From Nitrospirota bacterium (GTDB taxonomy: Bacteria > Nitrospirota > Thermodesulfovibrionia > Thermodesulfovibrionales > Dissulfurispiraceae), in assembly GCA_023476565.1 (NCBI GenBank), contig JAMCVZ010000017.1, positions 1 through 33,927 on the forward strand: a DNA stretch of 33,927 nt, in the 5' to 3' direction. A program made the translations under genes and the position numbers. A model generated the notes under the pieces. The model was not told the origin of the DNA. It searched no databases and worked only from the letters and a program-made list of their open reading frames with translations. Shown here piece after piece: positions 760 through 18,158 of the stretch; the stretch's first letter is position 1; every line of letters starts with the position of its first letter.

Positions 760-1350
760 ATGAAGCAATTCAAGAGGATATTGAATCAACCATATCTCTT
801 TTTACAACTGAGAATGTTTATTATAGTGTTGCTGACCCTCATGTTTGCGGCATCCGGGAGCCGGCTGCTTGCTCAGCCGGGTCCCGGAACAATCAGGATA
901 GGGGGCACGGGCGGGGCACTAGGCACTATGCAGCAACTGGCCAAGGCTTTTAAAAAAACACATCCCGATGTAAATATCGTCCTTTTCCCGAGCCTGGGCA
1001 GCAGCGGCGGGATCAGTGCCGTACAGGAAGGCGCGCTTGATATTGCAATCAGCAGCCGTCCTTTGGACGATGCTGAACACAACCGGGGTCTCGTTGCAAT
1101 AGAATATGCGAAAACCCCTTTCGTATTTGTCATTTCGAGCAAGAGCAGTATAACAGGGCTCACCACCCGGCAGGCCGTTGAGATTTACGAGGGCGGGATG
1201 CAAAGCTGGCCCGACGGCAGCCCCATTCGGCTGGTAATGCGGCCTGAGAGAGATTCTGATACTGCTCTGCTTAAAAGCATGTCCGACGCCATGAAAAATG
1301 CCGTTCGAAAGCAGGACGTGATATTCTCATCCGGACAGGACACTGGGTGA
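760..1350 (+). CDS. PstS-like periplasmic substrate-binding protein, short
   Basis: A 196-residue protein. It has a basic N-terminus, a hydrophobic segment (about residues 17-36) ending near LLAQ that fits a signal peptide or anchor, then a phosphate-binding-protein-like domain with GGTGGALGTMQQLAKAF, SLGSSGGISAVQEGALDIAI and SSRPL. These are hallmarks of PstS-like binding domains used as sensor input modules. ATG 760 is chosen over the upstream ATG at 631 because AGAGG precedes it at good spacing and the signal peptide follows directly. The domain stops at ...SSGQDTG, whereas related domains continue roughly 60-80 residues with the second lobe return, so it appears C-terminally truncated. 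It abuts the next kinase with no gap, suggesting it feeds that kinase. Confidence 0.7.
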   Translation: MKQFKRILNQPYLFLQLRMFIIVLLTLMFAASGSRLLAQPGPGTIRIGGTGGALGTMQQLAKAFKKTHPDVNIVLFPSLGSSGGISAVQEGALDIAISSRPLDDAEHNRGLVAIEYAKTPFVFVISSKSSITGLTTRQAVEIYEGGMQSWPDGSPIRLVMRPERDSDTALLKSMSDAMKNAVRKQDVIFSSGQDTG

Positions 1351-3147
1351 ATGAGCCGCCGGACCATGCAAAAACCGGACATTAAATTAATTTCCATTAT
1401 AAACCGGATTGCATCCGGCGCGGCAGGTGTGGTCGCCATATTACTGCCCATAGGCTATTTCGCCATTGTATATCAATATGAAACCGCCTCTCTGGACACC
1501 GAGGTGGAAATTAATGCGTACATTATCACCCAGTTGATCAATAAGAATCCCGAAATGTGGCGGTTCGAACATGAAAGGCTGGCGGAGTTTATGGCACGGA
1601 GGCCAAACAAAGGCAATCCTGAAATCCGGCGCATTCTGGACAACAAGAACAATACCGTCGTTGAAAGCAGGGATAAGCTGAAAGCGCCTTTTGCAACACG
1701 AGCCGGCAATCTTATGGATTCCGGGAGGGTTGTCGGGAGCATTGAGATCAGCCGCTCTTTACGCCCGTTATTAATAAACACCGGCCTCATATCACTGTTA
1801 GGACTGCTGCTGGGTTCAGCGGTATTTTTTACTTTGCGCACCTTTCCCGCACGCGCTGAAAAAGCTTTGCGCCAATCGGAAGAGCGCTACCGGAGCCTTG
1901 TTGAAAATGCACGCGATGTCATCTATACAATATCCGCTGAAGGGACCATTGCCTCTCTGAACCCGGCATTTGAAGAGATCTCCGGCTGGGAGAAAAACGA
2001 GTGGCTCGGCAAGCACTTCACGCATATAATCCATCCCGCTGATTTACCCTTTGCGACAGAGGTATCCCATCGCGTCCTGAACGGGGAAACGCCACCGACA
2101 CATGAGCTGCGCATTCAATTGAGCTCCGGCGCATATCTGGTGGGTGAGTTCACGGTGACGCCTTTGATGCAGGACGGGAAAGTTGTCGGGATTCTGGGTA
2201 TTGCACGCGACATTACCGGCCGCAAGCTGTTCGAGCAGCAGCTTGAGAAAAAAAACAGGGAATTGGAGAGTGCTTATGAAGAGCTCAAGAAAGCCCAATC
2301 CCGCATTTTGCAGCAGGAGAAGATGGCATCCATAGGCCAATTGGCAGCAGGGGTGGCGCACGAGATCAACAACCCCACAGGATTCATAATGAGCAATCTC
2401 GGCTCCCTCCAGAAATATGCAGATAGATTATCCGAATTCATAACAGCCCAATCTGAAGCGCTCAGGGTATTATCGAATACGGTGGAAAAGGGTAACGGCA
2501 ATCTGTTGGCCGGGATAGAAGAGCTCAGGAAAACTCTAAAAATAAATTATATAGTGGAAGACACTAAAAATCTTATTAAAGAATCTCTTGATGGTACAGA
2601 CAGGATAAAAAGAATAGTGCGGGATTTAAAAAGCTTCTCACATACGGACGATGCGGCACACAAGATGGCCGACATAAATTCAGGCATGGAAAGCACGATA
2701 AATATCGTCTGGAATGAACTGAAATATAAAGCGTCGGTCAAAAAAGAGTTCGGGAATATACCCATGACCAAATGCAATCCCGGCCAGCTCAACCAGGTAT
2801 TTATGAACATCCTGGTCAACGCAGCCCATGCTATCGAAAAGCAGGGGGAGATCACGGTAAAAACCTGGCGTGAAGGTGAGCATATCCATATTTCCATTGC
2901 CGACACGGGCTGCGGCATCCCTGAAGATAAACTGGGCAAAATATTCGAACCTTTCTTCACCACCAAAGAGGTGGGCAAAGGGACAGGGCTCGGGCTGAGC
3001 ATAGCCTATGATATCGTGAAAAAACACAACGGCGAGATTAAGGTTGAGAGCGAAATCAATAAAGGAACGACTTTTATAGTAAGGATACCTCTTACAGAAA
3101 GGGAACAGCCCTATGGGGATATCAGAACATTTACAACACAGGGATAA
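1351..3147 (+). CDS. Membrane sensor histidine kinase with PAS domain
   Basis: 598 residues. The N-terminal transmembrane segment (about 20-40) is followed by a short periplasmic region and a second membrane segment (about 131-155). A PAS domain comes next (about 175-290, with SLVENARDVIYTIS and GILGIARDITGRK), then a coiled coil. The HisKA H-box has GQLAAGVAHEINNP with phospho-acceptor His337, and a long helical insert precedes the HATPase domain. ATPase motifs seen are N box NILVNAAHAI, G1 DTGCGIPEDK and G2 GTGLGL. The start directly follows the stop of the PstS-like gene; Met6 is an alternative. The 3' end overlaps the next gene by 35 bp. A 379-bp part of the ATPase domain is almost identical to the downstream kinase. 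Confidence 0.9.
   Translation: MSRRTMQKPDIKLISIINRIASGAAGVVAILLPIGYFAIVYQYETASLDTEVEINAYIITQLINKNPEMWRFEHERLAEFMARRPNKGNPEIRRILDNKNNTVVESRDKLKAPFATRAGNLMDSGRVVGSIEISRSLRPLLINTGLISLLGLLLGSAVFFTLRTFPARAEKALRQSEERYRSLVENARDVIYTISAEGTIASLNPAFEEISGWEKNEWLGKHFTHIIHPADLPFATEVSHRVLNGETPPTHELRIQLSSGAYLVGEFTVTPLMQDGKVVGILGIARDITGRKLFEQQLEKKNRELESAYEELKKAQSRILQQEKMASIGQLAAGVAHEINNPTGFIMSNLGSLQKYADRLSEFITAQSEALRVLSNTVEKGNGNLLAGIEELRKTLKINYIVEDTKNLIKESLDGTDRIKRIVRDLKSFSHTDDAAHKMADINSGMESTINIVWNELKYKASVKKEFGNIPMTKCNPGQLNQVFMNILVNAAHAIEKQGEITVKTWREGEHIHISIADTGCGIPEDKLGKIFEPFFTTKEVGKGTGLGLSIAYDIVKKHNGEIKVESEINKGTTFIVRIPLTEREQPYGDIRTFTTQG
2660..3038 (+). repeat. 379-bp near-identical block, copy 1 (HATPase domain)
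   Basis: Matches 4527-4905 at a constant offset of 1867 bp with one mismatch (A2686 versus C4553, Met to Leu). Homologous flanking kinase sequence, including the H-box, is clearly diverged at third codon positions, so identity is confined to this block. Confidence 0.97.
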
Positions 3148-4972
3148 CAGGGACAATGCAATAGTTCTTATAGCAGAGGACAACCCCGTGGATCCGGGCT
3201 TTTTAAGCGTATTGATATCCGGGTGTGGATATTCGTTTAAAGCCGCCCAAAATGGCAAGGAGGCCATAAGGCTGGCCAAAGAGATGAATCCAGACATTAT
3301 ACTTCTCGATATCCTCATGCCTGAGATAAACGGGATAGAGGCATGTAAAATACTAAAAGAGGATCCGGGAACCCGGCATATTCCTATTATAATGGTAACC
3401 ACCTTTGAGAATAGAGAGGCAAAGGTAAAATGCCTTGAGGCAGGAGCAAGTGATTTCCTGACAAAACCTGTAGATAAAACAGAGCTCCTGGTACGGATCA
3501 CAAATCTGTTACAGCTTAAAGGCTTTGAAGAGATTAAAAGCAAGAATGCCAGCCTCTCAGCTACAATTAAGGCTATCGAGATTGCAAAAAAGGAGTGGGA
3601 ACAAACCCTCGACTGTATCGATGATATAGTCATACTGACAGATGGAAAAGATACTATCATCAGATGCAATAGGGCATTAAAAAAATTTACAGGCAAGCCT
3701 TACGAAGAAATTATCGGCAGAAACTGGCCGGAGCTGTTTCTTGAGTATGATCTGGCGCCCGATAAAGCATATGAGCATGGCGTTGAACTCTTCCATAAGC
3801 CAACCGGGAAATGGCTGGTCTTCAATTTCTATCCCGCTAAAAGCAATATCAGCGATGAGATTGCAGGCACTGTAATATCAATAAGGGATTTTACCGAGCT
3901 GAAAATGGCCACAGAGGCGCTCGAGATAACAAATACGTCAATAGACAATGACAGAAAGGAACTCCAGTTCGCGCTCAGTGATATTTCCTTCATCTTACAG
4001 GAAGTCGAGAAAAATAAGGACCTTGCCGTCAGGTTTAAAGTGCCGGATAGCTCTACTTCAAATCCCATATACCAGATTGGCGAGCATTTCAACAACATGA
4101 TGAATATGCTTGAGGCAAAAAACAACCAATTAGAAAAAGCATATGCTGAGCTCAAAGCGGCCCAATCCAGGATTTTGCAGCAGGAGAAAATGGCATCCAT
4201 CGGCCAGCTTGCAGCAGGCGTTGCACATGAGATCAATAACCCGACGGGGTTTATAATGAGCAATCTCGGCTCACTTCAGAAGTATACCGGCAAACTCTCT
4301 GAATTTTTAAAAATACAATCAGAAGCAATCGAAGAGCTGTCCAGACATGCGGGTGGGAGCGCCGAGGCGGTACTGGGCAGAGTAAAAGAATTCAAACGCA
4401 CTCTGAAGATCGATTATGTTACGGATGATCTTGGAAATCTGATCAAAGAGTCTATCGACGGCACTGAGAGGGTGAAGAAGATCGTACAGGATCTAAAGAG
4501 ATTCTCCCATGTAGATGAATCTGAATACAAGATGGCCGACATAAATTCAGGCCTGGAAAGCACGATAAATATCGTCTGGAATGAACTGAAATATAAAGCG
4601 TCGGTCAAAAAAGAGTTCGGGAATATACCCATGACCAAATGCAATCCCGGCCAGCTCAACCAGGTATTTATGAACATCCTGGTCAACGCAGCCCATGCTA
4701 TCGAAAAGCAGGGGGAGATCACGGTAAAAACCTGGCGTGAAGGTGAGCATATCCATATTTCCATTGCCGACACGGGCTGCGGCATCCCTGAAGATAAACT
4801 GGGCAAAATATTCGAACCTTTCTTCACCACCAAAGAGGTGGGCAAAGGGACAGGGCTCGGGCTGAGCATAGCCTATGATATCGTGAAAAAACACAACGGC
4901 GAGATCACGGCCGTGAGTGAGACAGGAAAGGGCACAAAATTTACTATAAAAATTCCAATCGAGGAAGGATAG
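3113..4972 (+). CDS. REC-PAS-histidine kinase hybrid, soluble
   Basis: 619 residues with no membrane segment. An N-terminal receiver (about 17-135) has the acidic pair in IAEDN, phospho-acceptor Asp66 in LLDILMPE and Lys in TKPV. A PAS-like domain (about 155-265) follows, then a coiled coil, an H-box GQLAAGVAHEINNP with His372, and a HATPase domain with DTGCGIP and GTGLGL. REC first and kinase last suggests a relay member that is phosphorylated by another kinase and tunes its own output. ATG 3113 lies inside the upstream kinase gene and is preceded by AGGGAA, so translation is probably coupled. It contains the second copy of the near-identical ATPase block. Confidence 0.9.
   Translation: MGISEHLQHRDNRDNAIVLIAEDNPVDPGFLSVLISGCGYSFKAAQNGKEAIRLAKEMNPDIILLDILMPEINGIEACKILKEDPGTRHIPIIMVTTFENREAKVKCLEAGASDFLTKPVDKTELLVRITNLLQLKGFEEIKSKNASLSATIKAIEIAKKEWEQTLDCIDDIVILTDGKDTIIRCNRALKKFTGKPYEEIIGRNWPELFLEYDLAPDKAYEHGVELFHKPTGKWLVFNFYPAKSNISDEIAGTVISIRDFTELKMATEALEITNTSIDNDRKELQFALSDISFILQEVEKNKDLAVRFKVPDSSTSNPIYQIGEHFNNMMNMLEAKNNQLEKAYAELKAAQSRILQQEKMASIGQLAAGVAHEINNPTGFIMSNLGSLQKYTGKLSEFLKIQSEAIEELSRHAGGSAEAVLGRVKEFKRTLKIDYVTDDLGNLIKESIDGTERVKKIVQDLKRFSHVDESEYKMADINSGLESTINIVWNELKYKASVKKEFGNIPMTKCNPGQLNQVFMNILVNAAHAIEKQGEITVKTWREGEHIHISIADTGCGIPEDKLGKIFEPFFTTKEVGKGTGLGLSIAYDIVKKHNGEITAVSETGKGTKFTIKIPIEEG
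4527..4905 (+). repeat. 379-bp near-identical block, copy 2 (HATPase domain)
   Basis: Partner of 2660-3038; one mismatch in 379 bp. The reading frame is the same in both genes. Confidence 0.97.
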
Positions 4973-4974
4973 GC

Positions 4975-5799
4975 ATGGAAGAGGGAATTAAAATATTATG
5001 TGTAGATGATGAGCAGAACGTTCTCAATGCGCTCAGAAGGCTCTTTCTTGATAATGACTATGCAATCTTCTCTGCCGCCTCGGGACAGGAGGGCCTGAAT
5101 ATTCTTGCGCAGGAACATGCCCAAATAATCATTTCGGATTATCGCATGCCGGGCATGAACGGTGTCGAATTCCTCAAAGAGGTCTGCAAGCTCCGGCCTG
5201 ATACGGTCAGGATCGTACTGTCCGGATATGCCGATGCAGCAGCGATCGTATCCGCAGTCAACGAGGGCCAAATTTACAAATTCGTACCAAAGCCCTGGAA
5301 CGATGATGAGTTAAGAGTAACGGTTGCCAATGCGGTCGAAAGGTATTTTCTATATAAGAGGAACAGGGAGCTTGCCGCTGAACTCCAGGAAAAGAACGAG
5401 GCGCTTACAAAATTGAACAGCGAGTTGGAAAAGTTACTCGAAGAAAAATCATCCCACCTCGAGTTCAGAAGCAGGGTACTGGCTACACATCAAAATATCC
5501 TCAACTCGATACCTGTAGGGATTCTTGGAATCGACTTCAACAACACTATAGTCCTGTATAACTCCATCTGGGTTGATATAACGGGCAACAACTGGTATGC
5601 ATTAGGCCAGAATATCGATGATTCCATGCCACAGGATATAATTAATTTCATCGGAGAAGTAAGGGACAAACATAAGAGCGCCAAAAGCCTGGAGATAAAC
5701 GGCAATTATGGCAGGCTCCTGGGGGCTCTCATGGATTATGAACACAACCAGCAAGGCATCATCCTTGCTTTCATTTGTGAGGAGGGCATTTCATGTTGA
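4975..5799 (+). CDS. Response regulator with coiled coil and PAS-like C-terminus
   Basis: 274 residues. The RpfG-type receiver (about 5-120) has VDDE, phospho-acceptor Asp55 in ISDYRMPG and the conserved KPWNDDEL end. A long charged coiled coil (about 125-165) follows, then a PAS-like domain (about 170-270, with ILNSIPVGILGID) similar to the fold that precedes kinase domains, but no kinase, DNA-binding or HD-GYP domain. It may be an adaptor that passes REC state to a partner through the PAS or coiled coil. It starts 2 bp after the previous stop with GAAGGA upstream, and its end overlaps the next start by 7 bp. Confidence 0.85.
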   Translation: MEEGIKILCVDDEQNVLNALRRLFLDNDYAIFSAASGQEGLNILAQEHAQIIISDYRMPGMNGVEFLKEVCKLRPDTVRIVLSGYADAAAIVSAVNEGQIYKFVPKPWNDDELRVTVANAVERYFLYKRNRELAAELQEKNEALTKLNSELEKLLEEKSSHLEFRSRVLATHQNILNSIPVGILGIDFNNTIVLYNSIWVDITGNNWYALGQNIDDSMPQDIINFIGEVRDKHKSAKSLEINGNYGRLLGALMDYEHNQQGIILAFICEEGISC

Positions 5800-6731
5800 A
5801 TACTTTGCTATTAGTAGATGATGATCCCAATATCCTGAATTCCCTCAAGAGATTATTCTTGGGTGAGAATGTGAAGGTAACAACTGCCGCAAATGCCTAT
5901 GAGGCTATAGACATATTGAAAAACAATAAAATATCCGTTATTGTTTCCGATAATATTATGCCGGGCATGAACGGTGTCGAATTTCTCCAAAAGGCAAAGA
6001 ACCTTTCACCCGAAAGCGTCAGGATACTTATAACTGCCCACGCTGATTTCAATGCCGCGATAGATGCCATTAACAAAGGAGAGGTGTATAAGTTTGTTTC
6101 CAAACCCTGGGACGATAATGAGTTTAAAGATATAATTTTCAATGCACTCGACCGCCACAGGGTTGTCATGTCCCTCAAGAGGGCCGACGAAGCTACCCTG
6201 CGCTCTCTGGCTCAAACTATCGAGTTGAAAGACCCCTATACTAAAGGGCACTGCGACAGAGTCGCAAAATATACAGTCAAGCTGGCAGAGGCATTGGGCT
6301 TGTCGCATGAGGATCAGGAGCATATAAAATACGGCAGTTGGCTTCACGATTGCGGGAAAATCGGGGTTCCTGAATCGATCCTGAACCATAACGGCCCGCT
6401 TACTCCCGAGCAGATGGAAATAGTAAAAAACCACAGCAGATGGGGGGCGGATGTCGTGAGACTGGCACAGCTCCCCCAGGCAGTTATCAATATCATCCTT
6501 TATCATCACGAGCGGTTTGACGGGAAAGGCTACCCGGACGGATTGAAGGGCAAGGATATTCCGATTGAGGCACGGATAGCGACTGTAGCCGATGTTTATG
6601 ACGCGCTTACATCGGACCGTCCCTATCGAAACAGAATCTCCCATGAAAAGGCCAAGGAATTCCTGATTAATTTCAAGGGCCAGTTTTTCGATCCTGACAT
6701 TGTAGCTACCTTCGTCGAATTATTCAGGTGA
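5793..6731 (+). CDS. REC-HD-GYP c-di-GMP phosphodiesterase
   Basis: 312 residues. The N-terminal receiver has VDDD, Asp53 in VSDNIMPG and SKPWDD. The HD-GYP domain (about 135-310) is canonical: HD at 185-186 in LHDCGKIG, His214, HH at 238-239, GYP at 246-248 in DGKGYPDG, and the ADVYDALTSDRPYR tail. The family hydrolyses cyclic di-GMP, usually to GMP or pGpG, with a metal centre held by these His and Asp residues. Architecture equals RpfG. A strong GAGGAGGG ribosome-binding site lies inside the end of the preceding gene, so the two are likely co-translated. All expected catalytic motifs are visible. Confidence 0.93.
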   Translation: MLNTLLLVDDDPNILNSLKRLFLGENVKVTTAANAYEAIDILKNNKISVIVSDNIMPGMNGVEFLQKAKNLSPESVRILITAHADFNAAIDAINKGEVYKFVSKPWDDNEFKDIIFNALDRHRVVMSLKRADEATLRSLAQTIELKDPYTKGHCDRVAKYTVKLAEALGLSHEDQEHIKYGSWLHDCGKIGVPESILNHNGPLTPEQMEIVKNHSRWGADVVRLAQLPQAVINIILYHHERFDGKGYPDGLKGKDIPIEARIATVADVYDALTSDRPYRNRISHEKAKEFLINFKGQFFDPDIVATFVELFR

Positions 6732-6737
6732 GCTAAA

Positions 6738-8069
6738 ATGCTGAAAAATAACGACCAGGAGAATTTGAGAATTCTTTTTGTTGATGATGAAGAAGGAGTC
6801 CTCCGCTCTTTGCAGAGGTTGTTCATTGATGAGGATTTCGAGATATTTACGGCATCATCGGGAAAGGCAGGCCTCGATATCCTGAAGAGCAACAACATTG
6901 CGGTTATCGTCTCAGACCAGAGAATGCCCGAAATGAGCGGCGCAGAATTCCTCGAGAAGGCCGGGAAGCTGGCGCCGGACTCCGTAAGAATAGTTCTGAC
7001 GGGCTATGCCGACATAAATGCTGCAATGGATGCCATAAACAAAGGCGGCGCTTACAGGTACATTACAAAACCCTGGAATGATAATGACCTCATCATAACA
7101 GTACTCAACGCTGCAGAAAGATTCAAGCTGATAAAGGAAAACAGATATCTTACCGAGCTCACAAAAAAGCAGAATGAAGAGCTTAAAAAGTGGAGCTCGG
7201 AACTCGAAATTTACGTACAAAAGCAGACGATAGAGCTGACCAATCAGAACAAGGAGCTGAAGAGGCTTAATGAGAAATTGAGGAAGGACTTTAATGATTT
7301 CATTTTTGCCTTCTTCAATATCATTGAACTGAGAAACAAGGTATTGCACAGCCACTCCAGCAATGTCGCAAATATTGCATCAGTCATGGCCGGCAAGATG
7401 GGATTGAAAAGCTCGGAAATTGAGACCATAACCATCGCAGCCATGCTGCATGATATCGGAATGATAGGGCTGCCTGATATCGTGCTGCTGAAGAACTTTG
7501 ACGAGCTGACAGCCGACGAAACAGATGAATACCTCAAGCACCCCGTAAGAGGACAGGCCGCTATCGATCCCATAGAGGATTTGAGAGAGGCTGGAGGGCT
7601 CATAAGACATCATCACGAACGGCACAACGGCAAGGGATTTCCTGACAAGCTCAAGGGGCAGGCAATACCAGTCGGGTCGAGGATAATAGGCATTGCTGAT
7701 AAATTTGATCGGTTGATAACCCTGAGCCACGAAACTCACAATGTAGACAGCGCGCTGCAGAAAGTACACTCCCTGTCGGGTACGCAATTTGACCCGGACT
7801 TATATAAATTCCTCAACGAGGCGGCAAGGGAGCAGGCAGGCGCCGTTGCTCAGACATCCGATACCGTGCAGGTGGAATTAAGTCCCAAAGACTTGATGCC
7901 CGGCCTGGTTGTGGCCCGTGATTTAAGAAGTGGAACAGGCCTTTTGCTCCTCAGCAAAGGGATTGTCCTTAACAAGAAGAACATCGATACAATAAGAAGG
8001 TCGTATCATCTTGATCCGTCGAAGACAGGTGTTTTTGTCTGGACTAAAAGGCAAATGCAAAAGACATGA
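6738..8069 (+). CDS. REC-coiled coil-divergent HD-GYP protein
   Basis: 443 residues. The receiver has Asp60 in VSDQRMPE and TKPWND. A coiled coil (about 135-185) joins it to an HD-GYP-like domain (about 190-350). HD at 238-239 and HHH at 291-293 are kept, but the GYP motif reads GFP (300-302), the Lys of HDxGKxG is Met (HDIGMIG), and the ADVYDAL tail reads ADKFDRL. The C-terminal 90 residues are an extra domain (LSPKDLMPGLVVARDL) often seen at the end of REC-HD-GYP proteins. It may still bind metal and nucleotide, but activity is less certain than for its neighbour. It overlaps the next gene by 4 bp (ATGA). Confidence 0.85.
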   Translation: MLKNNDQENLRILFVDDEEGVLRSLQRLFIDEDFEIFTASSGKAGLDILKSNNIAVIVSDQRMPEMSGAEFLEKAGKLAPDSVRIVLTGYADINAAMDAINKGGAYRYITKPWNDNDLIITVLNAAERFKLIKENRYLTELTKKQNEELKKWSSELEIYVQKQTIELTNQNKELKRLNEKLRKDFNDFIFAFFNIIELRNKVLHSHSSNVANIASVMAGKMGLKSSEIETITIAAMLHDIGMIGLPDIVLLKNFDELTADETDEYLKHPVRGQAAIDPIEDLREAGGLIRHHHERHNGKGFPDKLKGQAIPVGSRIIGIADKFDRLITLSHETHNVDSALQKVHSLSGTQFDPDLYKFLNEAAREQAGAVAQTSDTVQVELSPKDLMPGLVVARDLRSGTGLLLLSKGIVLNKKNIDTIRRSYHLDPSKTGVFVWTKRQMQKT

Positions 8070-8719
8070 TTGAGTACGATGATTTAGAAAACAAAATGAT
8101 TCTGAAGCTCGTCTACTATGGGCCCGCGATGTCCGGCAAGACAACAAATTTATTACGGCTCCACGATATCGTTGCCATTGAAGGCAGGGGGGATTTGATG
8201 ATGCTTGATACGAAGGACGACCGGACGATATTTTTCGACCTCCTCCCCTTTTTCTTTATAGCTCCAGGCGGATTGAGAATAAAAGTAAAAGTCTATACGG
8301 TCCCGGGGCAGATCCGCCATGATGCAACCAGAAAAGCTGTTCTGGCAAGGGCTGATGGCATAGCCTTCATTGCGGATTCGCAGCTTTCAGAGACGACAAA
8401 CAATTTCGAGAGCTTCGGGGCGCTCGAGAAGAATCTTGCTTTCGTCGGCATCGATATTGAGAAAATACCCCTTGTCATACAATTCAACAAAAGGGATATG
8501 AAAGATATCGTACCGGAGGATGAAGTGCTGAGGCTCTGGGAGCAAGCCGGCATACCGGTAATCATGGCCTCCGCGCTTAACGGCTCCGGGGTACTTGAAA
8601 CATTCAGATGCCTTGCTGAGCGCACCTATGATTATATCGACAGCCGTTATGGACTTAAGGAAAAACACCAGGTAACAAAAGAAATGTTCATCAATGAGCT
8701 TACGGGGCAAGTTGCATAA
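8066..8719 (+). CDS. MglA-family small Ras-like GTPase
   Basis: 217 residues. P-loop GPAMSGKT at 19-26, a switch-II-like TVPGQ at 78-82 in the place of DxxG, and a guanine-specificity motif NKRD at 141-144. The GPAMSGKTTNL signature and TVPGQ are typical of the bacterial MglA group. Members of this group set cell polarity and control type IV pilus or gliding machinery in Myxococcus and Pseudomonas-like systems. No MglB/roadblock partner is visible in the window. Start and stop overlap the upstream gene by 4 bp. Placement between c-di-GMP enzymes and a pilus-type ATPase supports a motility or surface-behaviour role; this is inference. Confidence 0.9.
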   Translation: MIEYDDLENKMILKLVYYGPAMSGKTTNLLRLHDIVAIEGRGDLMMLDTKDDRTIFFDLLPFFFIAPGGLRIKVKVYTVPGQIRHDATRKAVLARADGIAFIADSQLSETTNNFESFGALEKNLAFVGIDIEKIPLVIQFNKRDMKDIVPEDEVLRLWEQAGIPVIMASALNGSGVLETFRCLAERTYDYIDSRYGLKEKHQVTKEMFINELTGQVA

Positions 8720-8734
8720 CCTTGAGGAGAAGGC

Positions 8735-10141
8735 ATGGGTCACGGTATGGAATCCAATGACAGGATAGATTTCTTTATTGGCTCTGAATTGCGGCTCGAG
8801 GCCATACTGAGCGCTCCCGATACAGCGCCCTTGCTAAAAGCTGTGGTTAAAGCCGGCGCCGAGTTTGCCTCTGTCGCCGATGAAAAAGGCCGCTTCCTCT
8901 GGACTGAAGGGGTTGTCCACAATCCTGAAGAACTGCAATCCCATACAGTCAAGAGGCTGGAGAAAGGAATCTTAAAAAAACCGGAGCCGTTGAAAAATTC
9001 CTGCTGTGATAAAGCAACCTGCCTTTTAGCCCCGCTCCTCCACGAGGGTGAGCCCATCGGGTTTCTTCTTGTCTATATTCTTGACATGCCGCATGAATCA
9101 TTTCTCTCAGGCCTTGTGGAAATTGCCCTGATGAGCCTCAATATTACGATAAAAAACAACGTCAAGCGCATACTTACTACGGAGCTGCACACAACAGTCG
9201 TCAACCGATCTTACGAGGAACTCCTCGGGATTAACAAGCAATTATCCGCTTCCGAGAGGAAATATAAAGAGCTGGCTGAGACCCTTGAAAAAAAGGTTGA
9301 GGAGAGGACTGCTGAGCTGAAAATTGCCCACACGAGACTTTTACAGCAGGAGAAGATGGCATCGATCGGGCAATTGGCTGCGGGCATTGCCCATGAAATC
9401 AACAATCCTATCGGATTCATTTACAGCAATCTCAACACCTTCAGGAGATATGCCGGCAACCTGGGGAAAATGCTTGAATTCTATCGCTCGTGTGTTAGGG
9501 GGCTGCCCGGGGGGGAACCCTTGCTCAAACAATCGGAGGCGCTTTACAGGAGCTTGAAGATCGATTTTATCATGAGCGATATAAACGATCTCGTGCAGCA
9601 GAGTATGGACGGTTCAGAACGGATAAGAAACATTGTGGCAGACTTAAAGGGCTTTTCGCATATAGATGAAACCGCCGGGGGGGAAATAGATATCAATGCA
9701 GAACTCGACAAGACCATCAGCGTCCTTGCGCATGAGGTCACGAATAAAGCGGCGAATATCATAAAGGACTACGGCCGGCTGCCGGCCTTCTATGGGAACC
9801 CGGATCTTATCTGCCAGGTCTTTTTAAACATCATCCTGAACGCCCTTCAGTCAAAGGACGATAACCCGACAATAAACATAAAGACAATGCGCAGCGGCAA
9901 TGCAATCACTATTTCCGTTGCCGACAACGGGAGGGGAATTCCTGATGACGTCCAGGGCCGCATTTTCGAGCCGTTCTTTACTACAAAGGATGTGGGCAAG
10001 GGCATGGGGATGGGGCTTCCTGTTTCTTATGATATTATAACTGCCCACGGGGGCAGCATCGAAGTGCAGAGCCAGGTCGGGAAGGGCTCGATCTTTATAA
10101 TCACACTGCCGTTGGGCAATAGCGGGCAATTGCGCTGTTAA
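8735..10141 (+). CDS. Soluble histidine kinase with GAF-like sensor
   Basis: 468 residues with no membrane segment. The N-terminal 150 residues ([20 protein letters not shown], then [17 protein letters not shown]) resemble a GAF-type sensor, and include a Cys-rich NSCCDKATC stretch. A coiled coil (about 165-205, [11 protein letters not shown]) leads to the H-box [14 protein letters not shown] with His220 and a HATPase domain with DNGRGIP and GKGMGMGLP. The G2 box carries Met where Thr or Leu is usual. The start at 8735 is chosen for GAGGAG six bases upstream; Met5 is an alternative. The H-box neighbourhood is closely related to the two upstream kinases. Confidence 0.88.
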
Positions 10142-10175
10142 GCGGTCAGGCTGTCGAACAGTTGACCGCCAGCTT
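10142..10175 (+). other. Hairpin directly after a kinase stop codon
   Basis: GCGGTCA (10142-10148) pairs perfectly with TGACCGC (10163-10169). An inner CTGT/ACAG stem closes a CGA loop. No T-run follows, so it is either a palindromic repeat or an intra-operon RNA stabiliser or attenuator, not a classical terminator. Confidence 0.6.
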
Positions 10176-10197
10176 AATTACTCGGCAAGGAGAGTAA

Positions 10198-11892
10198 ATG
10201 TCAAAATATGCCGACATCTTCAAGGCGGTAAGAAAAGATACAGCCGGAGATGAAATGGGAACTCACGAACTGCCGGGCTCCGGGGCCGACAGCAGGTTTA
10301 CTCTCCTCTTCATCGACGATGAGGAAAATGTTCTTCATGCCCTCAAACGCATCTTCCTTGAGGAGAACTATGAAATATTGACTGCGCAGTCAGGTGCAGA
10401 CGCCCTCAAGGTCATGGAAAGCACTGTGGTCCATCTGGTAATTTCAGATCATAAAATGCCGGGCATGCCCGGCTCCGAACTGCTCAAGGCCATAAAGGCC
10501 GGATGGCCTGAAACCATCAGGATTATGCTTACCGGCCATGCGGATATTCAGGCGATCATGGGGGCGGTTAACGAGGGTGCAGTCTATAAGTTCATCACCA
10601 AGCCGTGGAATGATGAGGACCTGCGCTTGACCGTAAGCATCGCCCTTCAGCAATATGCGCTCATTCAGGAAAACAAAAAACTCAAAGACCTTGCAAAACA
10701 GCAGCAGATAAAAATTAAAAATTATTCCAATCTATTCGATGAATACAGAGGCATTCTGGGGAACGTCCTCATAAAAGCCGGCATAATCACAAATGAGCAA
10801 TTCAACAGGGCTCAAAAAGAAAAACAGCCTGATGAGTTCATCGGCGATGCTATCGTACGTCTCGGGTTTGCCGCTGAATCAAAAATAGTCCAGACGCTTC
10901 AGAAGCATCAAAACCTCGATTCCATAGATCTTAAAGAGGTGCAGATAAACTCGAATATAGCCAAATTTCTTCCCCGGGAACTCTGCGAAAAAAACAGGCT
11001 GCTCCCCATAAAACTCGAGGGCAAAAACCTGACAATCGCCATGGCGGACCCCTCCGATATCCTGAAAATAGATAATATCTGCATGCTCACAGGGTTCAAG
11101 GTCATGCCGGTGGTTGCAGGGTCCTCCGAAATCATGGCCCAGCTTAGAAAGATATACGGGGGCAAGGGCGAGAGCGAGTCGGCACGCGAGCTCGATGATA
11201 CCCTGGCGCTTGAACCGATAGAGGAAATAGACATAGTCTTAGAGGATGAGGAGACGGATGCCGATATCCAGGAACTGATCAGTTCCTCAGGCATTCCCCC
11301 GATTGTAAGGATTGTAAATGCGATCATACTGGAGGCGCTGCGCTATCAGGCAAGCGATATCCATATTGAACCGAAGACCAAGTATACCATCATCAGATAC
11401 AGGATCGACGGGATGCTCCATACAAAGATCAAGATACCTTCAAACCTGCATCCTGCTACGATATCGAGAATAAAAATACTCGCAAAAATGGACATCTCCG
11501 AACGCCGCAAGCCCCAGGACGGAAGAATCACCATGAAAACAGGCATCAGAATCGTTGATGTGAGGGTATCAACCATGCCGACCATAAACGGAGAAAAGGT
11601 GGTCATGAGGATACTGGACAAGAACGCCTCCATCAAGCAAATCTCGGAACTGGGAGTGCTCAGCAATGACCTGAAAAAACTTGGAATTATCATCAAGAAA
11701 CCTCAGGGAATCCTGATATCGACAGGCCCCACCGGCAGCGGCAAGACGACGATGCTGTATTCCATCCTCTACGAGATGCTCAAATCAACCAAAAATTATG
11801 AGACAATCGAAGATCCGGTGGAATATTTCCTTGAAGATGCCAACCAGGTTTACGTGAAAGAGCGCATAGGCCTCTCCTTTGCGTCCTCCTGA
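10198..11892 (+). CDS. REC-PilB/GspE-type ATPase, prematurely stopped by duplication
   Basis: 564 residues as it stands. The receiver (about 33-150) has Asp84 in ISDHKMPG and TKPWND. A GspE/MshE-type N-domain (about 180-330, GNVLIKAGIITNEQF and RLGFAAESKIVQTL) may bind c-di-GMP in relatives. The T2SSE ATPase begins with IVRIVNAIILEAL..ASDIHIEP and Walker A GPTGSGKTT. The frame then meets the 11886/11887 duplication junction and stops after ...FASS, losing Walker B and the His box. Skipping the second repeat copy (joining 11886 to 12714) gives a continuous 808-residue REC-PilB ATPase. A good AAGGAG site precedes ATG 10198. Secretion ATPases of this family drive pilus extension or type II secretion. 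Confidence 0.85.
   Translation: MSKYADIFKAVRKDTAGDEMGTHELPGSGADSRFTLLFIDDEENVLHALKRIFLEENYEILTAQSGADALKVMESTVVHLVISDHKMPGMPGSELLKAIKAGWPETIRIMLTGHADIQAIMGAVNEGAVYKFITKPWNDEDLRLTVSIALQQYALIQENKKLKDLAKQQQIKIKNYSNLFDEYRGILGNVLIKAGIITNEQFNRAQKEKQPDEFIGDAIVRLGFAAESKIVQTLQKHQNLDSIDLKEVQINSNIAKFLPRELCEKNRLLPIKLEGKNLTIAMADPSDILKIDNICMLTGFKVMPVVAGSSEIMAQLRKIYGGKGESESARELDDTLALEPIEEIDIVLEDEETDADIQELISSSGIPPIVRIVNAIILEALRYQASDIHIEPKTKYTIIRYRIDGMLHTKIKIPSNLHPATISRIKILAKMDISERRKPQDGRITMKTGIRIVDVRVSTMPTINGEKVVMRILDKNASIKQISELGVLSNDLKKLGIIIKKPQGILISTGPTGSGKTTMLYSILYEMLKSTKNYETIEDPVEYFLEDANQVYVKERIGLSFASS
11060..11886 (+). repeat. 827-bp exact tandem duplication, copy 1
   Basis: Identical to 11887-12713 as far as I can compare. 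The junction reads GCGTCC followed by TCCTGAAA, where the single-copy order would be GCGTCC followed by GTATTA. 827 is not a multiple of three, so the downstream frame shifts. Confidence 0.95.
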
Positions 11893-12713
11893 AAATAGAT
11901 AATATCTGCATGCTCACAGGGTTCAAGGTCATGCCGGTGGTTGCAGGGTCCTCCGAAATCATGGCCCAGCTTAGAAAGATATACGGGGGCAAGGGCGAGA
12001 GCGAGTCGGCACGCGAGCTCGATGATACCCTGGCGCTTGAACCGATAGAGGAAATAGACATAGTCTTAGAGGATGAGGAGACGGATGCCGATATCCAGGA
12101 ACTGATCAGTTCCTCAGGCATTCCCCCGATTGTAAGGATTGTAAATGCGATCATACTGGAGGCGCTGCGCTATCAGGCAAGCGATATCCATATTGAACCG
12201 AAGACCAAGTATACCATCATCAGATACAGGATCGACGGGATGCTCCATACAAAGATCAAGATACCTTCAAACCTGCATCCTGCTACGATATCGAGAATAA
12301 AAATACTCGCAAAAATGGACATCTCCGAACGCCGCAAGCCCCAGGACGGAAGAATCACCATGAAAACAGGCATCAGAATCGTTGATGTGAGGGTATCAAC
12401 CATGCCGACCATAAACGGAGAAAAGGTGGTCATGAGGATACTGGACAAGAACGCCTCCATCAAGCAAATCTCGGAACTGGGAGTGCTCAGCAATGACCTG
12501 AAAAAACTTGGAATTATCATCAAGAAACCTCAGGGAATCCTGATATCGACAGGCCCCACCGGCAGCGGCAAGACGACGATGCTGTATTCCATCCTCTACG
12601 AGATGCTCAAATCAACCAAAAATTATGAGACAATCGAAGATCCGGTGGAATATTTCCTTGAAGATGCCAACCAGGTTTACGTGAAAGAGCGCATAGGCCT
12701 CTCCTTTGCGTCC
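11887..12713 (+). repeat. 827-bp exact tandem duplication, copy 2
   Basis: Second head-to-tail copy; offset 827 bp from copy 1. After its end at 12713 the gene continues with unique sequence encoding the rest of the ATPase. Confidence 0.95.
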
Positions 12714-13451
12714 GTATTAAGAGCAACGCTTCGCCAGGACCCTGATGTGATTCTTGTAGGCGAGATCCGTGATTCTGAGACAGCGGATGTGGCTTTTAAA
12801 GCCGCCCTTACGGGCCACATGGTCCTGACAAGCCTCCATACAAATAACACGGTGGCAACCATCACCCGTCTCATCGACATCGGCGTAAAGCCGTACCTTA
12901 TTTCATCGGCTATTGAAGGGATAATAGCCCAAAGATTAGTGCGCAAGACATGCCATTATTGCAAGACCACAGCAGTTCCTGACGAGAGCATTCTCAGCCT
13001 CCTTAAAATACCGAAAAACACCTTTGGAGAGGTGGCGGCCGGGAAGGGCTGCAGCAAGTGCAATAATACAGGATACCTCGGGCGGATCGGCCTGTTCGAG
13101 GTATTCATTATAAATGATGAATTCCGCCATCTTATAAACAGCGACTACAAGGAATCCGAACTTATGAATCTAGCAAGGGCCGGCGGCATGAAAACATTAA
13201 TAGACGACGGCATAGAGAAAGTGAAGTCGGGCATTACCACTCTTGACGAGTTATTAAGGGTAATCGGCCCCCCGACAAGATACGAAAGGGAATGCGAGAA
13301 TTGCGGCAATATAATCGATATGACATTTTTATTTTGCCCCTATTGCGGCATGTTTAAACATAATATATGCGCCAATTGCAAAATGCCCCTTGAAGAGGAA
13401 TGGAATATGTGCCCGTTCTGCGGAGCACATAGAGAAGTGGGCATTAAATAA
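11910..13451 (+). CDS. PilB/GspE-type ATPase part with C-terminal zinc ribbons
   Basis: 513 codons from an internal ATG without a visible ribosome-binding site, so independent translation is doubtful. This is probably the 3' part of the disrupted REC-PilB gene. It holds Walker A GPTGSGKTT, Asp box/Walker B DPDVILVGEIRD, His box TGHMVLTSLHTNN, and the usual four-Cys zinc site (CHYC and CSKC, followed by GYLGRIGLFEVF). After the normal family end it adds about 55 residues with CENC, CPYC, CANC and CPFC pairs, that is, two zinc ribbons. GspE/PilB proteins normally lack this tail. Removing the duplicated copy restores one continuous gene from 10198. Confidence 0.8.
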   Translation: MLTGFKVMPVVAGSSEIMAQLRKIYGGKGESESARELDDTLALEPIEEIDIVLEDEETDADIQELISSSGIPPIVRIVNAIILEALRYQASDIHIEPKTKYTIIRYRIDGMLHTKIKIPSNLHPATISRIKILAKMDISERRKPQDGRITMKTGIRIVDVRVSTMPTINGEKVVMRILDKNASIKQISELGVLSNDLKKLGIIIKKPQGILISTGPTGSGKTTMLYSILYEMLKSTKNYETIEDPVEYFLEDANQVYVKERIGLSFASVLRATLRQDPDVILVGEIRDSETADVAFKAALTGHMVLTSLHTNNTVATITRLIDIGVKPYLISSAIEGIIAQRLVRKTCHYCKTTAVPDESILSLLKIPKNTFGEVAAGKGCSKCNNTGYLGRIGLFEVFIINDEFRHLINSDYKESELMNLARAGGMKTLIDDGIEKVKSGITTLDELLRVIGPPTRYERECENCGNIIDMTFLFCPYCGMFKHNICANCKMPLEEEWNMCPFCGAHREVGIK

Positions 13452-13479
13452 CCATTGTTTGTGACACGGGGAGGTAGCG

Positions 13480-14040
13480 ATGGCCGAAGACAGCATACTG
13501 ATAGTAGATGATGAGCCGAACGTAATTGCCGCCATAAAAAGAATTTTTATACATGAGCCCTATGAGATATTCTCCGGCGGGAGCGCATCGGAAGGCATGG
13601 AAGTCCTCAGGACTCATCCCGTCAAAGTGGTTATATCCGACGAAAGAATGCCGGGAATAACAGGCTCCGAATTCCTGTCAAGAGTGCGTCGTGACTTCCC
13701 GGGTGCAATAAGGATCATGTTGACAGGCCATGCCAGCATAACCACCGCCATGAAAGCGGTAAACGAGGGCGAAATATACAGGTTCCTTACAAAGCCCTGG
13801 GATGATATCGAGCTCAGACTTACTGTACAGACCGCACTTGACAAGTACAACCTGGAAGAGGAGAACAGGAGACTCTTGAAAATAGTCAGACAGCAGGCAT
13901 TAAATCTGAAATTGATCGAGAGGCAATTCCCGGGCATTACAAAACTCGACCGTAGTGAAGACGGCAAGATCACGCTGCCGGACATATCGGAGGATGAGAT
14001 GTCGGAGATCATTGCCCAATGCGAGCGGGATTATATCTGA
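13480..14040 (+). CDS. Receiver protein with short helical tail
   Basis: 186 residues. The receiver (about 5-120) has VDDE, phospho-acceptor Asp54 in ISDERMPG and TKPWDD, the same RpfG-like subfamily as the RECs upstream. The tail (125-186) is helical and acidic with no recognisable output domain. It could be a phosphate sink, a shuttle in the relay, or a protein-binding switch for the ATPase encoded just before it. A GGGGAGGT ribosome-binding site precedes the start by a short spacer, and a 28-bp gap separates it from the ATPase gene, so it is the last gene of the island. Confidence 0.85.
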   Translation: MAEDSILIVDDEPNVIAAIKRIFIHEPYEIFSGGSASEGMEVLRTHPVKVVISDERMPGITGSEFLSRVRRDFPGAIRIMLTGHASITTAMKAVNEGEIYRFLTKPWDDIELRLTVQTALDKYNLEEENRRLLKIVRQQALNLKLIERQFPGITKLDRSEDGKITLPDISEDEMSEIIAQCERDYI

Positions 14041-14179: not shown

Positions 14180-14297
14180 CGCCATAGAGAGACAAATAAT
14201 AAAGGCAACAGCCAGATAAAAATGAATCCCACGGCTTTTAGTGCAGCTATAAAGCTTTAAACTATCTATCATGAAAACCCAGAGAGGAAAAAAGAGC

Positions 14298-15560
14298 ATG
14301 GAAAATTACATTTCAATTTCAGAATTGAAAGAAAAAACCATCGACGAGCTTGCCCATTTCGCTAAAGAACTGAATGTCGATGGCGCGACCGGCATGAGAA
14401 AGCAGGACCTTATATTCGCCATCCTTCAGGCGCAGGCGGAAAAGGCCGGCAGTGTCTATGGGGCCGGTGTTTTAGAGATTCTCCCCGACGGCTTCGGATT
14501 TCTGCGTTCTCCGGATTACAGCTACCTGCCGAGCCCGGATGATATATACGTGTCACCATCGCAAATCAGGCGCTTTACGCTCAGGACGGGTGATTATGTC
14601 TCAGGACAGATACGGCCCCCGAAGGAGAATGAAAGGTACTTCGCCCTTCTGAAAGTCGAAAGCATAAACAATGAGTCCCCGGAGCACAATGTAAGCCGCC
14701 CGCTGTTCGATAACCTTACCCCTTATTATCCTACGGAAAAGATAAACCTCGAATATGAGGGGGGTGATTACTCCATGAGGGTCATGGACCTCTCAACTCC
14801 CATAGGAAAAGGGCAGCGCGGCCTGGTTGTGGCGGCGCCGAGGACCGGCAAAACAATGCTCCTCCAGTCGATTGCGAAGGCCATCAAGAAAAACCATAAG
14901 GAGATACACCTTATAATACTGCTCATCGATGAAAGGCCTGAAGAGGTCACCGACTGGAAAAGACAGGTGAGCACCGCTGAGATCATAAGCTCTACATTCG
15001 ATGAGCCCCCGCAGAGGCACTGTCAGGTTTCCGAGATGGTTATTGAAAGGGCAAAGCGCCAGGTGGAGGCAAAAAAAGATGTCGTGATTCTCCTCGACAG
15101 CATAACCAGGCTGGCGAGGGCTTATAACACGATAACGCCCACCAGCGGAAAAGTGCTGTCAGGCGGACTGGATGCCAACGCCCTTCAGAGGCCCAAGAGA
15201 TTCTTCGGCACAGCACGAAGCATCGAAGAGGGAGGCAGTCTCACCATACTCGCAACAGCGCTCGTAGATACCGGCAGCAGAATGGATGACGTCATTTTCG
15301 AGGAGTTTAAAGGAACGGGCAACATGGAGCTCCACCTCGACCGGAAGCTCGTTGACAAGAGGATATTCCCGAGCATCGACATCAACTCTTCAGGGACCAG
15401 AAAAGAGGAGCTTCTTGTCGATAAGGACGTCCTGAACAAGATGTGGATACTCAGAAAAGTCCTGAATCCTTTGAGCACCGTGGAAAGCGTGGAGTTCCTG
15501 CTCAGCAAGCTCAAAGGGACAAAGAGCAACAGAGAATTCCTGGAGATGATGAATAAATAA
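14298..15560 (+). CDS. rho: Transcription termination factor Rho
   Basis: 420 residues from ATG 14298. Domain order: N-terminal helical [17 protein letters not shown] with [12 protein letters not shown]; the cold-shock RNA-binding domain with [20 protein letters not shown] and [13 protein letters not shown]; then the RecA-like helicase with Walker [26 protein letters not shown]-type motif and Walker [18 protein letters not shown]. Rho is the hexameric RNA-dependent helicase that ends transcription. ATG 14298 is preferred to 14271 because GAGAGG lies upstream and family members start just before the LKEKTIDEL block. No insertion domain is present. It has its own promoter and long leader. Confidence 0.98.
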
Positions 15561-15564
15561 CAAC

Positions 15565-15655
15565 CGTCGCCGGTCTACGGTCAGCAGTCAACAGTCTTTC
15601 TCATCGAAGCCGATTCGCATATGCAAAGCCTGACTGCCGACCGCCGGCCGGCGAC
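15565..15655. repeat. Heptamer-built palindromic element (GGTCAGC type)
   Basis: The left arm runs in 7-bp steps GGTCTAC, GGTCAGC, AGTCAAC from 15572. The right arm is GCCTGAC, TGCCGAC, CGCCGGC, CGGCGAC (15628-15655). The outer 25 bp of each arm are largely complementary. It sits between rho and the thioesterase gene and could act as a transcript-end structure. Same architecture as the other heptamer elements in the window. Confidence 0.6.
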
Positions 15656-15666
15656 TAAGGACCGAT

Positions 15667-16056
15667 TTGCTTCTTGAGGACAACAAGTACTGCTTTGTAT
15701 GCGGCAAAAGCAACCCGTATGGATTAAAGCTGTCTTTCAGCTACGCAGACGGGAAGATATCATCCGAATTCACCCCCGCCCCAATGCATCAGGGATACAA
15801 GGATATAACCCACGGCGGGATAATAGCGTCCATTCTCGACGAGGCGATGATACAGGCTGCCCTGTCGGAAGGGATAACGCCTGTTACCGCGGAAATAAAC
15901 GTGAGGTTCAGGAAACCCCTGGCAATGGACAGGAAGACAGTTGTAGAAGCGGAAATAACGAAGAAGGGATCCAGGCTTCTGGAGGCGCGCTCGCGGCTCT
16001 TGGACTCCGCTGACGGCGCCGTCATAGCCGAGGCAAACGCCAAGCTCATACGATGA
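15667..16056 (+). CDS. Hotdog-fold thioesterase (PaaI/YigI type)
   Basis: 129 residues from TTG with AAGGA five bases upstream. Motifs YCFVCGKSNPYGLKL, then HQGYKDITHGGIIASILDEAM and VTAEINVRFRKPL, are those of single-domain PaaI-like acyl-CoA thioesterases. The HGGIIASILDEA helix carries the usual active-site region with the acidic residue in LDE. The substrate cannot be read from sequence. Its stop overlaps the start of the sensor kinase by 4 bp, so it is cotranscribed and probably co-translated with that kinase, an unusual pairing. Confidence 0.85.
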   Translation: MLLEDNKYCFVCGKSNPYGLKLSFSYADGKISSEFTPAPMHQGYKDITHGGIIASILDEAMIQAALSEGITPVTAEINVRFRKPLAMDRKTVVEAEITKKGSRLLEARSRLLDSADGAVIAEANAKLIR

Positions 16057-18089
16057 AAGGCTACCTGATAATCATCGGCACGCTCATTGTTGTGATTTCC
16101 GGCCTAATCACCTTAAACATATTTTTCCAGCAATCGCTCCAGATGGAAATAGCGGAGCAGTTCAACAAACAGCAACTCCTGCTCTCACGGTCCATTGCCG
16201 ACAATATAAGCGCATATCTCTATTTTGTGAAAGAAGACGTCCTGCATATCTCCCGTATGCTGTCCAATACGGATATTACTGCCGGAAAAAATTTCGACTG
16301 GCTGAAAAATGATGCTCTGAGGAAGAAGGGGATAATTAATACCACTATCGGTATCCTGAATGCCGGGGGCGACATAATCTTTTTTGAAGGGAACAGAGAT
16401 ATGGTGAAGCCTGTGGCCCCTGATATAGTGAAGCAAGCAAAACACGTGGCATCCGGGGATATAGCTATAAGAGAAGAAATCCCGTCCACTGTATACATAC
16501 TGTCTCCCGTATACAGACAAAACAATATGATTGGGGTGATCTTCCTGTCGATCAGGATACATGACATAGCGAATCACTTCGTCAGCAGCATAAAATCCGG
16601 CAGCAGGGGATATGCATGGATGATGGACAAAAGCGGGACGCTCCTCTACCACCCGACCCAGCCGGGAATGGTGGGCGGGAATATCTATAAGGCGGACGCC
16701 ACCTGCTTCAAATGCCATATGAGCTTTGACCTCGAAAAAAGGATCATTGAGGGCAGGGCGGACAGCTTCGGCAGGTATATCGCCCCATCCGGCGAGGATA
16801 AGATTATTGCCTTCTCGACCGCCGCCATCGACAACCTCTCATGGATAATCGCGGTGTCATCGCCCTATTCCGAGGTGACCCGCACCACAAAACACAGCAT
16901 GGAACTCTACTCCTACCTTATCGTGTCCATTTTTATAACAACGAGCATCGTTTCAGCCATACTCATTGTCTTCAACAAAAAGAGGATCAAGGCTGAAGAG
17001 GTAGCGAGCCGGAAGGAAGAGCTCGAAAAGTATGCGGTCGAGCTTGAAGAGCGGGTAAGCGAGAGGACGTCCGAGCTGGCAAGCGAGAAGGAAAAACTGA
17101 ACACCATAGTCAGCGCCATAGGCGGCGGCATTGTCCTGATCAGCAAAGCAGGCACAATCCAGTGGGCGAACCAGATGATGACCGACATGGCCGGCATGGA
17201 TATCACCGGGAAGTCCTGCGAGGACCTCTGCCCGGACTGCAATGCATCGGAAACGTTCGCCAAGGATAGTATCGATACCATAATCGTATCCAACCTTTTC
17301 GGGCAGAAGGACAAATACTTCCAGATCACCACGGCGCCGGTAACAGGAGAAGGCGGCGAGGTCCACGGCTATATAAGGCTTATACAGGACGTAACGGAAA
17401 TAAAGAAGATGGAAGAGCAGATCATCCATTCCGAAAAGCTCGCCTCAATAGGAAGGCTGGCCGCAGGAATCGCCCATGAAATAGGCAACCCGCTTACCTC
17501 CATATTTTCTTTTGTCCAGATACTCAGGGAGATGGAGGTGGAGGAGTTCAAGAAAGAGAGCCTCGAGACCATCTATTTCCATATAAACAGGATCTCGGAG
17601 ATCCTGAAGCAACTTTCGGGGTTCTCAAAAATGCCTGCCGGAGAGCCGAAGAAATGCGCCGTCAATGATGTGCTAGATACCTCCATAAACCTGATACAGT
17701 ACGATAAAAAGGCCAAGGCGATATCAATTGTCAAGGAACTTTCCCCCTCCCTGCCGGAGGTTGTCGTTGACGGCAACCAGTTGTCCCAGGTCTTTGTTAA
17801 TCTCACCCTGAACGCAATAGATGCCATGCCTGACGGCGGCACCCTCACCGTAAGAAGCATGACAAAGGGAAATGATATAATTATACATTTCCAGGATACG
17901 GGGACAGGCATCCCGAAGGAAGATCTCAATAAAATATTCGACCCCTTCTATACGACTAAAGAAAAGGGCACCGGCCTGGGGCTGGCCGTAAGTTATAATA
18001 TAGTTAAAAAAATGAACGGAACGCTGTCTGTTGAAAGCGATATCGGCACAGGGAGTGTCTTTACCATTACAATACCGTACAAAAATTAA
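16053..18089 (+). CDS. Cache-domain sensor histidine kinase with CXXCH motif
   Basis: 678 residues. A transmembrane segment (about 4-24) is followed by a large periplasmic double-Cache-like domain (about 30-285, ending in WIIAVSSPYSEV) and a second membrane segment (about 289-311). The periplasmic part contains CFKCH at 218-222, a covalent heme c attachment motif. A cytoplasmic coiled coil and a PAS domain (about 345-455) with Cys389, Cys393 and Cys396 follow. The H-box is [14 protein letters not shown] with His475, and the HATPase has DTGTGIPKED and GTGLGLAVS. The GNP H-box and gene order mark it as the partner of the NtrC-type regulator downstream. Its stop codon lies in an AT-rich repeat. 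Confidence 0.9.
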   Translation: MKGYLIIIGTLIVVISGLITLNIFFQQSLQMEIAEQFNKQQLLLSRSIADNISAYLYFVKEDVLHISRMLSNTDITAGKNFDWLKNDALRKKGIINTTIGILNAGGDIIFFEGNRDMVKPVAPDIVKQAKHVASGDIAIREEIPSTVYILSPVYRQNNMIGVIFLSIRIHDIANHFVSSIKSGSRGYAWMMDKSGTLLYHPTQPGMVGGNIYKADATCFKCHMSFDLEKRIIEGRADSFGRYIAPSGEDKIIAFSTAAIDNLSWIIAVSSPYSEVTRTTKHSMELYSYLIVSIFITTSIVSAILIVFNKKRIKAEEVASRKEELEKYAVELEERVSERTSELASEKEKLNTIVSAIGGGIVLISKAGTIQWANQMMTDMAGMDITGKSCEDLCPDCNASETFAKDSIDTIIVSNLFGQKDKYFQITTAPVTGEGGEVHGYIRLIQDVTEIKKMEEQIIHSEKLASIGRLAAGIAHEIGNPLTSIFSFVQILREMEVEEFKKESLETIYFHINRISEILKQLSGFSKMPAGEPKKCAVNDVLDTSINLIQYDKKAKAISIVKELSPSLPEVVVDGNQLSQVFVNLTLNAIDAMPDGGTLTVRSMTKGNDIIIHFQDTGTGIPKEDLNKIFDPFYTTKEKGTGLGLAVSYNIVKKMNGTLSVESDIGTGSVFTITIPYKN

Positions 18090-18158
18090 AATGCAAAATT
18101 TAAAAATATGGAATCCCTTAATTTTAAATTTTTCTTTTTTGCTTTTTGAATTCAATTT
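18082..18158. repeat. AT-rich inverted repeat between kinase and regulator
   Basis: An A-rich left half (units such as AAAATTA, AAATGCA, AAATTTA) and a T-rich right half (TTAAATT, TTTCTTT, TTTGCTT) form an imperfect inverted repeat. The kinase stop TAA (18087-18089) is inside it, and it runs up to the regulator start codon. The 7-bp periodicity is weaker here than in the other elements. Confidence 0.45.

Follow-up and report, generated by a model that had tools for sequence, protein, structure and literature searches.

Known inputs that tune pilus assembly motors are c-di-GMP, PilZ/FimX, and response regulators acting in trans. Two described systems come closest on the side of two-component control. 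Synechocystis has a response regulator, PixE, that acts in trans by binding PilB1 (PMC7690835), and PixE-PilB1 and FimX-PilB control have in common that a REC (receiver) protein acts on the pilus extension ATPase (PMC7690835, PMC11656802). Small GTPases provide a second line of control. SofG, a Group 1 GTPase of Myxococcus, works without MglB and positions PilB/PilT (PMC4316618), and MglA together with SgmX is reported to stimulate pilus formation (PMC7519303). Operons that combine a histidine kinase with an MglA GTPase are known as well, namely the actinobacterial conservons, which consist of a histidine kinase, a Roadblock protein, a protein of unknown function, and MglA (PMC4316618).

The locus described here lies in a window of 33,927 nucleotides, corresponding to contig C45 of a Nitrospirota assembly of 2.67 Mb and 96% completeness. 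The locus appears to hold a self-contained control cassette whose output is a PilB/GspE-class assembly motor used as a response regulator, switched by a kinase and probably positioned by MglA; a rough probability of 0.55 is assigned to this reading. While PixE-PilB1 and FimX-PilB control operate in trans, the REC domain is here part of the motor. The conservons differ in another way: their MglA belongs to Group 2, has a Roadblock partner, and comes without a response regulator, whereas this block contains six RECs and a motor ATPase.

From the ATG of the first gene at 760 to the end of the last gene at 14040, all genes lie on the forward strand and are separated by gaps of -35 to +56 bp, which agrees with the same-strand arrangement with short gaps and overlaps claimed in the preliminary description. 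The gene order is a binding protein (PBP), HK1, REC-HK2, REC-PAS, two REC-HD-GYP proteins, MglA, HK3, a REC-MshEN-T2SSE ATPase, and a short REC protein. Pfam recovered all of the parts that the preliminary description had listed, i.e., three kinases, six REC domains, two HD-GYP domains, an MglA-like GTPase, and the REC-MshEN-T2SSE protein. The PBP gene (760-1350, in a frame that opens at 631) encodes a PstS/PBP-like periplasmic-type binding protein that matches Pfam PBP_like_2 at 3e-22 over profile positions 7-151 of 267. Its C-terminal part, which is present in locus L086, is missing from the window, and L086 is the only relative locus in which a PBP gene adjoins HK1. The binding protein is probably an input for HK1. 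Its stop codon is followed immediately, in frame, by the ATG of HK1 (1348-1353).

HK1 (1351-3147) is a histidine kinase with a PAS domain, a HATPase_c match of 8e-29, and two segments found by hydrophobic-segment prediction. It is followed by RHK2 (3113-4972), a REC-PAS-histidine kinase recognized by Pfam Response_reg and HATPase_c. The next gene (4975-5799) encodes a KPWN-type REC with a PAS-like C-terminal region; Pfam gives the REC only, and the PAS-like part was read from the sequence. Further downstream, a short REC protein of the KPWD type (13480-14040) closes the block and carries a C-terminal tail that is conserved among relatives. The acceptor Asp and the Lys are present in all RECs of the block. 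Five of these RECs had been proposed to form one KPWN-type group, and they do form a KPWN/KPWD set with 37-53% mutual identity; with the hybrid-kinase REC and an NtrC-type REC, they share only 23-34% identity. The catalytic ends of HK1 and RHK2 share an exact 352-bp identity (2687-3038 and 4554-4905) whose flanks are ~46-84% identical, and less past the 3' end, and either gene conversion or a chimera may account for it. A 113-bp exact block also lies between two tandem kinases in L057, an independent MAG locus. Beyond the block come a rho gene, a dCache histidine kinase, and an NtrC-type regulator (14271-19511), in an order shared by the closest relatives (L021, L022, L042, and L057). An imperfect 84-bp direct repeat (87%) occurs within an LptE-like ORF at 22702-22785 and 23068-23151.

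Is the block a working unit? A search through the ATPase found 80 relative loci, and the positional counts below take only those loci that have enough flank. HK3 lies just upstream of the ATPase in 69 of 75 loci, MglA is kept beside it in 63 of 69, and the short REC follows it in 54 of 58. An HD-GYP gene is present upstream in 46/58 loci, REC-PAS within 7 kb upstream in 46/55, and a further kinase in 51/53. When pairwise distances are compared between ATPase, MglA, HK3, and short REC, they are correlated with r 0.73-0.91, as against at most 0.27 in permutations. In other words, rather than being conserved in no relative, the gene set recurs in 80 loci with correlated divergence and belongs together, as had been proposed. 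Kinase and REC paralogues are abundant and vary upstream, and on that ground ordinary two-component paralogues might simply have piled up side by side without forming a working unit. This explanation is very improbable and already largely refuted, given that the MglA-HK3-ATPase-REC order is found in two phyla with correlated divergence. The Desulfatitalea loci L132 and L133 keep REC-PAS, MglA, HK3, ATPase, and short REC, with no HD-GYP detected, and these five genes are therefore taken as the core of the cassette.

Relatives of the ATPase come from Thermodesulfovibrionales/Nitrospirota and Desulfobacterota, above all from the Geobacter group. The cassette was carried by 21 of 176 sampled genomes of the window's own order and 26 of 396 of Nitrospirota, by 57 of 141 in the order of Geotalea (Geobacter group), and by 13 of 194 in the Desulfobacterota order of Desulfatitalea. 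Its distribution is patchy, as most genomes with pili lack the cassette. ATPase and MglA are both present in the named isolates Geotalea toluenoxydans, Oryzomonas japonica, Geobacter argillaceus, and Geothermobacter hydrogeniphilus. Because the tree has some open forks and phylum labels are mixed among the MAGs, no claim of transfer between phyla is made.

The preliminary description missed that the motor ATPase is split into two ORFs in the assembly. The first (10198-11892) contains Pfam REC (37-145), MshEN (240-324), and T2SSE profile positions 6-202 of 370, and the second (11910-13451) contains the full T2SSE core (profile 6-370), a tetracysteine, and a C-terminal double zinc ribbon (DZR). 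The split results from an 827-bp unit that occurs twice, exactly and head to tail (11060-11886 and 11887-12713). Because 827 is not a multiple of 3, the reading frame is shifted and the first ORF ends at 11892. An arrangement of two tandem motors was dismissed: 268 residues of the first ORF recur at 100% identity in the second, which then continues, so there is one gene. When one copy of the unit is removed, the ATPase frame is 808 aa, matching the roughly 810 aa of relatives. Nearly all relatives have a single ORF of about 800-850 aa; gene copies lying at the end of a contig deviate, as do a few unusual loci, L128 and L130 among them.

An exact, frame-breaking duplication would also fit a real mutation that inactivated the motor in this population and left a decaying pseudo-cassette, and the PBP ORF is short too. 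This possibility is doubtful, because a 416-kb sample of the MAG, window included, contains five exact head-to-tail duplications, three of which break reading frames. None was found in 1.35 Mb of relative loci, for which the chance at the MAG's rate is ~1e-7. The four further duplications and their absence from the relatives make an assembly artefact the most likely origin of the 827-bp repeat, with copy 2 as the probable artefact. The other four lie at C67:52667-53275, C30:9904-10555, C30:11809-12133, and C5:15489-15655 of the same assembly, and two of them yield a longer ORF once reduced to one copy.

The ATPase is thus treated as one gene, and every full-length relative shows the fusion of REC with a PilB/GspE-class ATPase. 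The T2SSE match of 1e-127 places the protein in the PilB/GspE superfamily. In a fold search, PilB, PilF, and GspE came first at about 45-47% identity and PilT reached only 21-24%, which points to a motor of the assembly class. It shares the core fold, Walker A, acidic and His boxes, tetracysteine, and an MshEN-like N-terminal region with PilB/PilF (G. metallireducens 5tsh and T. thermophilus 5oiu). Unlike PilB/PilF, it has an N-terminal REC with a long helix and, in most cases, a C-terminal double zinc ribbon; furthermore, it stays below the equivalog cut-off and has no pilus genes alongside. Three intact orthologues scored 559, 563, and 585 bits against the PilB cut-off of 675.65 (TIGR02538). 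The core fold is likewise shared with GspE, but intact orthologues scored only 542-556 bits against the GspE cut-off of 630.25 (TIGR02533), and no gsp operon is found around the gene. In a small tree, the REC-ATPases stand apart from PilB/GspE paralogues and form one clade in 77% of bootstrap trees.

Walker A, the acidic box, the His box, and the tetracysteine (CxxC...CxxC) are invariant in 48 ATPase orthologues. So are D40, D41, D84, T112, and K135 of the REC domain (numbered as in the L056 orthologue), in which D84 is the acceptor; the domain therefore has the acceptor Asp, acidic pair, Thr, and Lys of a functional response regulator. With the fusion universal in full-length relatives and these residues invariant, the earlier proposal that phosphorylation would switch the motor is a reasonable one. 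A structure model predicts a helix of 41 residues (139-179) that connects REC with the MshEN region. For the whole protein this model has a mean pLDDT of 72.8 and a pTM of 0.41, so its placement of domains, including that of REC on the hexamer, is not reliable.

Which machinery does the motor serve? As the preliminary description stated, the block contains no pilin, PilC, or PilT gene, and no GspF or secretin gene was found in it either. Among the 80 loci, no additional gene family is conserved around the block. A cassette without platform, prepilin, and PilT genes must act on machinery encoded elsewhere, and such machinery is present: T2SSF (PilC/GspF-type) loci lie on three contigs of the genome, which also encodes PilT-like ATPases and 16 prepilin-type proteins. 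This fits the earlier suggestion that the ATPase depends on components encoded outside the block.

The machine could be T2SS-like rather than a pilus, in which case the cassette would control secretion, for example of surface proteins, on kinase input. The score of the GspE model is close to that of the PilB model (544 versus 559 bits for L056, 509 versus 488 for the window ORF), the block kinases match NCBIfam T2SS_HK below its cut-off, and the genome has several T2SSF loci. A secretion role is nevertheless judged unlikely, as the PilB model scores higher on intact orthologues, PilB and PilF top the structural matches, and the partners known for GTPases of the MglA type are motility machines. 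A different possibility is that the REC-ATPase does not drive assembly and instead occupies the platform, where, depending on phosphorylation, it would compete with the housekeeping PilB/GspE or serve it as a signalling subunit. Other PilB/GspE-class ATPases are encoded in the genome, on branches apart from the REC-ATPases, and a signalling function of PilB has been reported in M. xanthus (PMC5544727). However, all motor residues are invariant and a pure blocker would not need them, so such a role seems rather improbable.

The GTPase of the block (8066-8719) has M. xanthus MglA as its best solved match (2e-42), and no second MglA was found in the genome. Group 1 MglA proteins are recognized by an Arg beside the G2 Thr and by TVPGQ in G3 (PMC4316618). 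The block MglA carries this signature, and both DRT and TVPGQ are conserved at 90% or more in 62 orthologues. No Roadblock/LC7 protein (MglB, PF03259) was found in this genome or in 15 same-family genomes tested, so the GTPase does not form an MglA/MglB GTPase-GAP module here; Geobacter-group carriers have Roadblock proteins elsewhere in the genome. The intrinsic Arg and TVPGQ are shared with MglA/SofG of Myxococcus xanthus, and SofG is by analogy the nearest functional parallel. Unlike MglA/SofG, the block MglA shares its operon with genes for two-component proteins and a motor ATPase, in a genome without a Roadblock protein.

HK3 (8735-10141; HATPase_c 6e-25) adjoins the ATPase gene, has a conserved H-box, and has no predicted membrane segment. 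In a model with a pLDDT of 84.5, its N-terminal 100 residues form a small alpha/beta domain; the N-terminal domain region is at 8747-9190. Could this domain stand in for MglB? A Roadblock-like domain that replaces the missing MglB would let the kinase read MglA-GTP and phosphorylate the motor REC, with no c-di-GMP binding. Matches to Robl_LC7 are weak (2 of 41 members, best E 0.011), the hhalign match to Roadblock is weak as well (probability 34.5 over 24 columns), and the PhoR sensor 3cwf competes with them at E 0.003; fold searches with whole HK3 were filled by kinase cores and barely probed this domain. The idea is a speculative one with low odds. If it is true, GTPase polarity and phosphorelay would converge on one ATPase hexamer.

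A direct effect of c-di-GMP on the motor through MshEN was also considered. MshEN domains that bind c-di-GMP have two 24-residue motifs, RLGxx..G..L...L..Q or a relaxed form, and perfect conservation of the motif may not be required for binding (PMC5013675). None of 78 REC-ATPase orthologues matched even the relaxed pattern, and the first Arg is missing in both halves. The positive control for this comparison, made with paralogues, is weak: three of the PilB-class proteins tested match one relaxed copy. A direct effect through MshEN is therefore not supported, and with the motif lost, the HD-GYP proteins more likely act on other receptors. HD-GYP protein 1 (5793-6731; HD_5 7e-37 plus REC) has full HD and HHExxxGxGYP motifs. 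In protein 2 (6738-8069; HD_5 4e-33; NCBIfam NF053512 at 479 bits, above the cut-off of 400), GFP replaces GYP, as in most of its relatives.

How might the cassette work? A block kinase, most likely the adjacent HK3, would phosphorylate the ATPase REC at Asp84. Pairing of RECs may then be relayed via the 41-residue helix to the MshEN ring, switching the assembly or activity of the hexamer, which would act on an inner-membrane platform encoded elsewhere, of the type IV pilus or T2SS-like kind. MglA-GTP may place or recruit the motor, by analogy with what SofG does for PilB/PilT in Myxococcus. In parallel, the two REC-HD-GYP proteins would lower c-di-GMP, and the short REC may be a phosphate sink or partner. 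For this scheme, we infer the phosphotransfer partner, the sign of regulation, the MglA-motor contact, and the identity of the machine.

Each part of the cassette is already known. A search of open-access papers, with subscription papers outside its scope, found no description of a REC-T2SSE fusion or of the cassette; the REC-motor fusion and the conserved joint cassette are thus not met in that literature. The conserved cassette in many Nitrospirota and Geobacter-like bacteria looks like a real, unstudied control of a surface motor. A motor with a receiver of its own, encoded across two phyla in one operon with its kinase and MglA, would take phosphorylation signals directly. The routes by which two-component signalling and small-GTPase polarity act on pili would then become testable in Geobacter-type and Nitrospirota bacteria, for which contact with surfaces matters.
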